Below, in pieces: positions 53,890 through 55,877 of a stretch of 64,000 nt of DNA. The notes under the pieces are model-generated. The model was not told the origin of the DNA. It did not search any database and saw only the letters and a list, made by a program, of their open reading frames with translations. Both the position numbers and the translations under genes were made by a program. The stretch comes from Prochlorococcus sp. AG-436-E22 (GTDB lineage: Bacteria; Cyanobacteriota; Cyanobacteriia; PCC-6307; Cyanobiaceae): NCBI GenBank assembly GCA_003212615.1, contig QCPG01000002.1, positions 1 through 64,000 of the forward strand. The letters run 5' to 3'. The number at the start of each line of letters is the position of its first letter. Positions within the stretch are counted from its first letter, which is position 1.

Positions 53890-53894
53890 CAAAG

Positions 53895-53976
53895 TGGGAG
53901 CGGTCGGACTTGAACCGACATACCCGAAGGTGCCGCATTTTGAGTGCGGTGCGTCTACCAATTCCACCACGCTCCC
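53895..53976 (-). tRNA. tRNA-Leu (CAA)
   Basis: Class II tRNA with a long variable arm. Acceptor GGGAGCG/CGCTCCC, anticodon stem CCGCA/TGCGG with loop CTCAAAA (anticodon CAA, codon UUG), T arm GTCGG-TTCAAGT-CCGAC and discriminator A, 82 nt in total. CCA is not encoded. It lies immediately upstream of argD and may share its transcript. Confidence 0.96.
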
Positions 53977-54236
53977 AAGGCTTTTGAAAAAATTAACCTT
54001 TTTATTATAACAAAAATCATTTTATTGACTATTGTTTTGGTCAAGGAACAGTGATGAAGATAACGTTTGTTAATACTTAATCTTTTCGATAAAAACATAG
54101 AATTATATTTATTGAATTTGCTGGCAATAAATAAGATAAAAATGCATTATTTAACATTTATGATGCAATTATGTAGCAATAATCTCAAAAAGAACCTATT
54201 TTCGAGAAAGTGGCTTCATAATCAGTAATATTGTGT

Positions 54237-54242
54237 TATATT
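54237..54242 (+). promoter_or_regulatory. Possible -10 element before the tiny membrane peptide pair
   Basis: TATATT (54237-54242) lies 16 bases upstream of the first peptide's ATG, within TGTGTTATATTAAAAG. No strong -35 is visible at the right spacing (GCTTCA is weak). It would give a very short leader. Confidence 0.35.
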
Positions 54243-54257
54243 AAAAGAAAAAATTAA

Positions 54258-54365
54258 ATGACTAAAATTAAAGTAAAAAATTTATCTTTACAATTTGTTC
54301 CCTACCTTTTCTTTGCAGTGACTATATTGACAGCATTTGGATCTAATAATGGAACATGGGCATGA
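54258..54365 (+). CDS. Tiny single-span membrane peptide, first of a coupled pair
   Basis: A 35-codon ORF, too short for the ORF track, starts ATGACTAAAATTAAAG. It encodes a basic N-terminus (MTKIKVKNLSL), one hydrophobic helix (QFVPYLFFAVTILTAFG) and a short polar end (SNNGTWA). Its stop overlaps the next ORF's start as ATGA, the hallmark of translational coupling. It sits in an otherwise empty gap between argD/tRNA-Leu and murA. I do not recognise it as any known photosystem or cytochrome small subunit. Size and layout resemble such subunits, but the function is unknown. Confidence 0.5.
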   Translation: MTKIKVKNLSLQFVPYLFFAVTILTAFGSNNGTWA

Positions 54366-54472
54366 ATGATTTCAAGCTTAGTGGTATAAATAAAATTTGG
54401 TCTAGTCGCTTCTTAGTATTATTTCTTATATTTTTAGGTTGTATTTCAATTATCAATATTGCTTACGTTTAA
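54362..54472 (+). CDS. Tiny single-span membrane peptide, second of a coupled pair
   Basis: A 36-codon ORF begins inside the stop of the previous one (ATGA overlap). It encodes a polar, basic N-terminal half (MNDFKLSGINKIWSSR) and a strongly hydrophobic C-terminal half (FLVLFLIFLGCISIINIAYV). This is a classic N-in single-span design with no tail. It ends 34 bp before the convergent murA stop. No family recognised. The two peptides together look like subunits or assembly factors of a membrane complex; that is inference. Confidence 0.5.
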   Translation: MNDFKLSGINKIWSSRFLVLFLIFLGCISIINIAYV

Positions 54473-54506: not shown

Positions 54507-55877
54507 TTAGGCGGCTCTATATTTAGGAATATCTGCAGGATCTGACTTCATTTTAAACTCCTTATTCTTCAAAGTTTGTTTGTTAAACTCTCTATTTATT
54601 TTTATACCCAATATTTTTAGTTTTGATTCAAAATTTTCATAACCTCTATCCAAGTGCTCTAAACCATAGATTATACTAGTGCCTTCAGCTATAATCCCAG
54701 CAATTATTAATGCGGCTGAAGTCCTCAAATCTGATCCAACTAGATCCATCCCCTTAATTTTTTTAACACCTTTGATATGGGCTATATTTTTATTTAATTT
54801 TATATTTGCTCCCATTTTATTGAGTAAATGAACATGGTTCATTCTGTTTTCGAAAATTGTTTCAGTTATCTTTGATTCACCATTCGCGATTGCCATTAAA
54901 GTTGTAAATGGTGCTTGCAAATCAGTTGGAAATCCTGGGAAAGGAGCTGTTTCAATATCTACCCCTTTAATCTCTTTACTCTTGATTGTAATTGAATTAC
55001 CTTTAATCGTAATTTTACTTCCACTCTCTTGAAGCTTATTCGTGACAGCTTCAAGATGATTAGGAATTACAGGAGAAACTGTTATCGAAGAGGAAGTCGC
55101 TGCAGCAGCTATTAAAAAAGTGCCAGCTTCTATTCGATCTGGAATTACTTTATGAGTGCAACCACAAAGCTTATTAACACCATCAATGATTATTTTTTCT
55201 TTGCCCGAGTCGTAAATTTTTGCACCCATTTTATTTAGCATTTGGCATAAATCCTGAATTTCAGGTTCTCTTGCAGCATTCTCAATCGTAGTTCTTCCTT
55301 CCGCTAATGATGCCGCCATTATTAAAGTTTCAGTTGCTCCTACGCTTGGGCACTTTAATTTGATATGTGAACCATGCAGTTTATTAGTCTCGTACTTTAT
55401 TCTTGCTTTGACAATTCCTTCTTCAATAATAATTTCTGCTCCTAAGGCTTGAAGCCCATTTATGTGCTCATCTATGGGCCTTGAACCAATATTGCATCCT
55501 CCAGGCAAGGGGACTTTAGCCTCTCCATATTTACTTAATAATGCACCTATACAAAAGAAACTAGCTCTTAATCCATTAACAAGTTCATATGGAAGTTCTT
55601 TGATAGAAATATTTTTAGGATCTATCTCTAATCGATTGTTTTTTTGGATTAATTTAACACCTAAACTCTTTAGGATATTCCCCATTTTTTCAATATCAGT
55701 AAGTCGAGGAACATTCTCAAGAATTATTCTTTCATTAGTTAGCAATGATGAGGCTAATAAAACTAAGGCAGAATTCTTAGCGCCACTTATTTCAACTTTT
55801 CCATGTAAGTTACCTTGGCCAAAAATCTTTAAATTTTGAGATTTAAGATATGACTTCTTTTTGCTTACGCAAATCAT
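54507..55877 (-). CDS. murA: UDP-N-acetylglucosamine 1-carboxyvinyltransferase
   Basis: MurA transfers enolpyruvate to UDP-GlcNAc, the first committed peptidoglycan step and the target of fosfomycin. The 456-residue protein has VEISGAKNSALVLLASSLL and the active-site cysteine in LPGGCNIGSRPIDEHINGL, the residue fosfomycin alkylates. TAPFPGFPTDLQAPFTTLMAIANG and the C-terminal DLRTSAALIIAGIIAEG also fit. An about 13-residue Lys/Ser-rich N-terminal lead precedes the core. Confidence 0.95.
   Translation of the reverse strand: MICVSKKKSYLKSQNLKIFGQGNLHGKVEISGAKNSALVLLASSLLTNERIILENVPRLTDIEKMGNILKSLGVKLIQKNNRLEIDPKNISIKELPYELVNGLRASFFCIGALLSKYGEAKVPLPGGCNIGSRPIDEHINGLQALGAEIIIEEGIVKARIKYETNKLHGSHIKLKCPSVGATETLIMAASLAEGRTTIENAAREPEIQDLCQMLNKMGAKIYDSGKEKIIIDGVNKLCGCTHKVIPDRIEAGTFLIAAAATSSSITVSPVIPNHLEAVTNKLQESGSKITIKGNSITIKSKEIKGVDIETAPFPGFPTDLQAPFTTLMAIANGESKITETIFENRMNHVHLLNKMGANIKLNKNIAHIKGVKKIKGMDLVGSDLRTSAALIIAGIIAEGTSIIYGLEHLDRGYENFESKLKILGIKINREFNKQTLKNKEFKMKSDPADIPKYRAA

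Follow-up and report, generated by a model that had tools for sequence, protein, structure and literature searches.

Two overlapping genes for single-span membrane peptides are conserved between tRNA-Leu and murA in the Prochlorococcus genus that contains MED4

We analyzed a 64,000-nucleotide stretch of DNA from Prochlorococcus sp. AG-436-E22 (contig QCPG01000002.1, positions 1 to 64,000), referred to as the window, in which the gap between tRNA-Leu(CAA)/argD and murA holds two short ORFs on the plus strand (Table 1). Two ORFs of 35 and 36 codons that overlap by ATGA had been proposed at this place, with a TATATT box close upstream; the coordinates are confirmed here, and the box is present at 54237-54242. 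The stop codons of ORF2 and murA are 34 bases apart, and an ORF1-ORF2 transcript would run into the murA 3' region. An in-frame ATG at 54356 could serve as an alternative start for ORF2 and would add two residues to its product. Separately, the stretch from the tRNA-Leu gene to the ORF1 promoter (53982-54160) shows per-block conservation of 0.82-0.91 in close relatives and contains no conserved ORF. The tRNA-Leu promoter, with a minus-strand TTATAAT at about 54003-54009, accounts for part of this conservation.

Table 1. Position and properties of the paired genes, their promoter block and their neighbors in the window
Feature	Position	Strand	Description
ORF1	54258..54365	+	ATG at 54258, stop TGA at 54363-54365; 35 aa; single-span membrane peptide MTKIKVKNLSLQFVPYLFFAVTILTAFGSNNGTWA
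ORF2	54362..54472	+	ATG at 54362, stop ends at 54472; 36 aa; single-span membrane peptide MNDFKLSGINKIWSSRFLVLFLIFLGCISIINIAYV
ATGA stop/start overlap of ORF1 and ORF2	54362..54365	+	Kept in 65/67 distinct copies
Promoter block CTTCA-N5-AGTAATATT-R-TGTTATATT	54214..54242	+	Near-invariant in 66 copies
tRNA-Leu(CAA)	53894..53976	-	Divergent neighbor of the pair, followed by argD
murA	54507..55877	-	Convergent neighbor of the pair

We extracted 67 distinct copies of the pair from the loci of relatives and aligned 66 of them for indel and conservation tests. Mean dN/dS across the 67 copies is ~0.15 for ORF1 as well as for ORF2, indicative of purifying selection, and pooled pN/pS is 0.24 and 0.23, respectively. 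Conservation at codon positions 1, 2 and 3 amounts to 0.91, 0.94 and 0.78 in ORF1 and to 0.91, 0.95 and 0.82 in ORF2 (66 copies), with third positions being the most variable, and it falls sharply past the ORF2 stop. Frame-breaking indels are found in none of the 66 copies of ORF1 and in two of the 66 copies of ORF2, one of them an extra T within a T-run (L022). As a control, we followed two chance ORFs from this gap, of which one is intact in just 1 and the other in 4 of the 66 copies (~95% broken). Seven copies in which the ORF1 start was scored as lost mostly represent shifted starts that yield N-termini of differing length, and their frames are not broken. A+T-rich DNA commonly holds ORFs of this size, and dozens are listed nearby, so that a chance origin of the pair had to be considered. 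Because the frames are intact where the controls are broken, because the codon positions follow a coding pattern and because dN/dS is low, chance ORFs are excluded; all conservation tests and the retention of the pair across genus members count against this reading, which we regard as refuted with near certainty. Both ORFs are real genes under strong purifying selection.

The overlap between the two genes is similarly retained. The junction reads CATGA or TATGA in the 65 copies that keep it, whereas the two exceptions (L005 and L016) carry ATAA at the junction and have lost the ATG there. In both exceptions, an in-frame ATG lies six bases further upstream; overall, 19 of the 67 copies have ATG there. 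This pattern is consistent with a start codon being needed at the ORF1/ORF2 junction, though the exceptions number just two. We rejected a frameshift that would fuse ORF1 to ORF2: in nearly all genomes, a stop closes the ORF2 frame 4-5 codons upstream, leaving an open frame of 40-41 aa, and no slippery run is conserved.

Each peptide combines a basic N-terminal side with a single hydrophobic stretch, as had been claimed. The best 19-residue Kyte-Doolittle mean has a median over the copies of 1.73 for ORF1 and 2.59 for ORF2, and AlphaFold2 models a single helix per peptide, comprising residues 3-29 in ORF1 and 3-35 in ORF2. The basic N-terminus of the ORF1 peptide is followed by a conserved PY-L-F where the helix begins, and its C terminus carries G-T-W-A/V. 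In the ORF2 peptide, G8, W13, S14, R16 and F17 are invariant, and the helix contains a conserved G-C-x-S-x-x-N-x-A motif. The helical-face conservation moment gave no signal for the two peptides (p 0.52 and 0.63). According to the positive-inside rule, a basic N-terminus is expected in the cytoplasm, and we infer this topology for both peptides. Selection at the codon level, the integrity of the frames, the near-universal overlap and the helix predictions support the description of the pair as translationally coupled single-span peptides.

A DNA search recovered the region from most genomes within the genus, with the match contracting towards the ORFs and the promoter in those that diverge most. 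Among 68 genomes sampled from the window's genus, Prochlorococcus, 63 contain ORF2 at a cut-off of E below 1e-8. Two of the ORF2-negative genomes, G480 and G474 (loci L167 and L168, respectively), retain the usual arrangement of murA and tRNA-Leu and lack the pair in the gap. The other three are uninformative: a contig ends within the region in G023, and murA is likewise absent from the matches in G423 and G469. All named genomes matched by ORF2 are labeled Prochlorococcus or uncultured Synechococcaceae. Other genera of the family mostly keep the argD-tRNA-Leu-murA order with no pair in the gap, and profile (HMM) searches outside the genus returned just weak matches for either peptide, none of them convincing. 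An expected sharing with marine Synechococcus was not borne out, the gap being without the pair there and in the other sampled picocyanobacterial genera. The pair is thus restricted to the window's genus within Prochlorococcus, to which the high-light strains MED4, MIT9302 and MIT9314 belong. The MurA tree places G474 on a branch that precedes MED4, and it places G480 between MED4 and the remainder (94/94 support). The simplest history, provisional as MurA is a single gene, would be that the pair was gained after the G474 branch and lost in G480. Since G480 is located inside the clade and lacks the pair, the pair is not essential everywhere. In the course of this comparison, we noted that four genomes from other genera of the family (G101, G108, G137 and G191; loci L189-L192) carry two MurA-like genes, of which only one lies beside tRNA-Leu.

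The TATATT box is part of an extended -10 element (TGT-TATATT) located ~15 bases before ORF1, and a very short leader is therefore expected. The promoter block is nearly invariant in MED4 as well, and CTTCA near -35 is invariant. Positions 54225-54242 read GTAATATT-GT-GTTATATT, an 8-2-8 direct repeat that resembles an HLR1 site. HLR1 is the binding site of RpaB with the consensus KTTACAWW-N2-KTTACAWW, and a 2026 review attributes to HLR1 the repression of high-light genes in cases where the site overlaps the start region (PMC13421787). The repeat agrees with the consensus at 13 of 16 positions, with the central C absent from both halves. 18-mers that match HLR1 this well occur at 0.06% of window positions; when only TTATATT sites in the window are counted, an equally good left half is found at 6 of 45 (~13%). 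MED4 shows no enrichment of HLR1-like sites, with 208 matches against 346 for a reversed control. No other locus in the searched genomes shares the promoter block as a regulon would, the block being unique to this locus. Judged from the sequence of the repeat, control of the pair by RpaB through an HLR1-like site is possible.

A light response has been reported at the corresponding place in MED4. The 'new ORF' PMED4_14671, opposite the 3'UTR of PMED4_14661 (PMM1300), is 14-fold up when light increases, as measured on RNA by microarray (PMC2518516, Steglich 2008), and PMM1300 is unchanged while the ORF opposite rises (PMC2518516). PMM1301 and PMM1263 are the ornithine-type transaminase and the ornithine carbamoyltransferase of MED4, respectively (PMC2242806). 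Our sampled genome G015 is MED4: it contains the 244-nt Yfr6 at the published coordinates (627729-627972, complement; described with a 33 aa ORF and a terminator in PMC1242208), with the 33 aa ORF starting from ~nucleotide 97 and the terminator in place. In this genome, argF (PMM1263) sits 35 kb before the argD/murA locus, in agreement with the gene numbering, and the gene order is murA(+), pair(-) at 1252486-1252712, tRNA-Leu(+) and argD(+). As PMM1301 is argD, the preceding gene PMM1300 is murA by position, and the pair represents the only minus-strand ORFs of at least 30 aa in the murA-to-tRNA interval. We are thus highly confident that PMED4_14671, matched by position, is the ORF at this pair's place, very probably ORF1 or ORF2. 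Together, the published microarray and the positional match support high-light induction of the pair in MED4. They also qualify the claim that the genes had been missed: the pair is unlisted in the ORF track of the window, but the 2008 study of MED4 probably already included one new ORF at this place.

Our best explanation is that the locus represents a high-light-induced bicistron encoding two co-inserted single-span peptides that may serve as accessory or assembly peptides of the photosynthetic membrane, for which we see about an even chance, the partner and the function being inferred. In low light, the promoter would be held down, possibly by a regulator bound to the conserved block overlapping the -10 element, with an RpaB/HLR1-like site as the best candidate. 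A rise in light would release the promoter, and a near-leaderless bicistronic mRNA would be made. Ribosomes ending ORF1 would reinitiate at the ORF2 ATG that overlaps the ORF1 stop, and similar amounts of both peptides would result. The two peptides would insert as single helices with their basic N-termini in the cytoplasm and may act jointly, as subunits with an accessory or assembly role in a photosynthetic membrane complex in light stress. RpaB control, the pairing of the peptides, their thylakoid location and the partner complex are all putative elements of this model. The original prediction had taken the peptides for small subunits of a membrane complex, possibly a thylakoid one, or for factors in its assembly. 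Such a role has become more plausible, because the MED4 ORF at the same position is reported to be 14-fold light-induced, but it remains a conjecture, with no library match, solved relative or link of either peptide to a photosystem behind it.

A role at another membrane or in another process is the main rival to this explanation, and readings of the pair as a toxin or as a regulatory RNA fit worse. The coupled peptides might act at the plasma membrane or in a different light-induced process, such as transport, protease regulation (e.g. of FtsH), redox stress or envelope repair. Small single-span bacterial proteins often regulate transporters and proteases, the sequence holds nothing specific to thylakoids, and the pair adjoins murA, though convergently. 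However, light induction and the restriction to the high-light lineage weakly favor the photosynthetic membrane, and we consider a role elsewhere possible but rather doubtful. It appears very unlikely that the pair forms a type I toxin-antitoxin-like module, in which toxic peptides would be checked by an antisense RNA reading through from murA. The two peptides are indeed short, hydrophobic and single-span, convergent murA transcription would be antisense to the pair and is a candidate control, and toxin-antitoxin behavior was proposed in 2008 for two other small-peptide loci of MED4. Yet the fixed position, the near-universal retention in the genus, the strong purifying selection on both peptides and the arrangement as two coupled cistrons behind a conserved promoter speak against a toxin, and an Rfam scan of the locus returned nothing credible, neither an antitoxin nor another RNA family. 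We give still less credence to a transcript that functions mainly as a regulatory RNA with incidental ORFs. Small intergenic transcripts of MED4 are often regulatory RNAs (PMC2518516), and the convergent arrangement could affect murA, but the variable third codon positions, the low dN/dS, the in-frame changes in N-terminal length and the divergence right after the ORF2 stop are at odds with this reading, as are the missing Rfam match and the steady level of PMM1300, at the murA position, in the 2008 paper.

Extending our preferred explanation of a light-induced pair at the photosynthetic membrane, we tentatively speculate that the locus encodes a lineage-specific photoprotection module, in which two obligately co-translated helices pair and join a photosystem or repair machinery in high light only. 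Such a module would have arisen near the origin of high-light Prochlorococcus and would aid life at the ocean surface. High-light Prochlorococcus has a very small genome and dominates the sunlit oligotrophic ocean, yet nearly all sampled members keep the pair. It appears near the base of the high-light lineage and answers strongly to light if the MED4 match holds, and is therefore a concrete, small and testable candidate for the difference between high-light and low-light Prochlorococcus. More generally, a comparison across many single-cell genomes can bring to light coupled genes of this very small size in streamlined genomes. The light-responsive ORF of MED4 is apparently known already; in the largely open-access literature searched, we came across no account of the second cistron, the coupling overlap, the lineage restriction, the conserved promoter or the peptide analysis.

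We compared the pair to known families and systems. Neither peptide has a match in Pfam or NCBIfam even at E 10, and sequence and profile searches of the PDB gave no relevant match for either one. Phage records and viral contigs contain no relative of the pair, and hence there is no sign of phage carriage. Two weak look-alikes of ORF1 that carry a VPYIF motif were rejected as relatives, as they reside in unrelated contexts and lack a coupled second ORF. One of them (L193:2028-2129(+)) is a 33 aa single-span peptide, MSKNNLYIPLKVVPYIFISITAIAITAATYVIT, with an ORF1-like helix start K-x-VPY-I/L-F; it lies upstream of an OsmC-like gene, has equally weak matches in many HL genomes and is possibly another unannotated small gene. 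The other (L195:1977-2057(+)) is a 26 aa peptide, MKLVPYIFMAVAIFSEVSTIATTPII, that is nearly identical across many genomes of genus g86 and lies ~1.1 kb from a plastid-terminal-oxidase-like gene, near hli-like ORFs.

The closest counterpart by position is PMED4_14671 of MED4, which occupies the same place opposite the PMM1300 3'UTR and next to PMM1301 (argD), and for which the paper gives a single ORF and the light response. Yfr6, a short transcript of MED4 formerly called non-coding, encodes a peptide of 33 aa, but this peptide is soluble, consists of YRG repeats and follows a glutamine-II riboswitch. We rejected a link to this '33 aa conserved peptide', as the peptides are unlike and no RF01704 is present at the pair's locus. 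Elsewhere, glutamine-II (RF01704) matches precede another peptide type (MNTLALIRAQILKAKRLEQAQL... and MNDLVLIREKINKARRLNQAKLL... in L218 and L223) rather than the usual YRG peptide, and in L216 such a match precedes an ORF of ~100 aa.

Low-mass subunits of PSI, PSII, cytochrome b6f and NDH-1 (PsbM, PetL, PetM, PsaI and others) are likewise single-span peptides of 30-40 aa. They are, however, widely conserved in cyanobacteria and have Pfam and PDB relatives, whereas the pair has none, and with the Pfam, NCBIfam and PDB searches empty, we rejected an assignment of the pair to a known subunit of this kind by sequence. The Hli/SCP proteins (chlorophyll a/b-binding-like) are light-induced, as the pair would be if the MED4 match holds; they resemble the pair in being small and single-span, and they have many copies in high-light Prochlorococcus. 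An assignment to this family was also rejected, as both peptides lack an E-x-x-N-x-R-type chlorophyll-binding signature and a Pfam match. HliR1 of Synechocystis 6803 is a high-light-inducible, single-span peptide of 37 aa that has been shown to be translated and that is genus-restricted, with no homologues beyond Synechocystis (PMC5126843). Compared by description, it shares with the pair a nearly identical length, the single span, a restricted distribution and, if the MED4 match holds, high-light induction. It differs in being one cistron upstream of sodB, whereas the pair consists of two coupled cistrons in an unrelated context. By this analogy, among the systems compared, the pair probably works most like HliR1 of Synechocystis.
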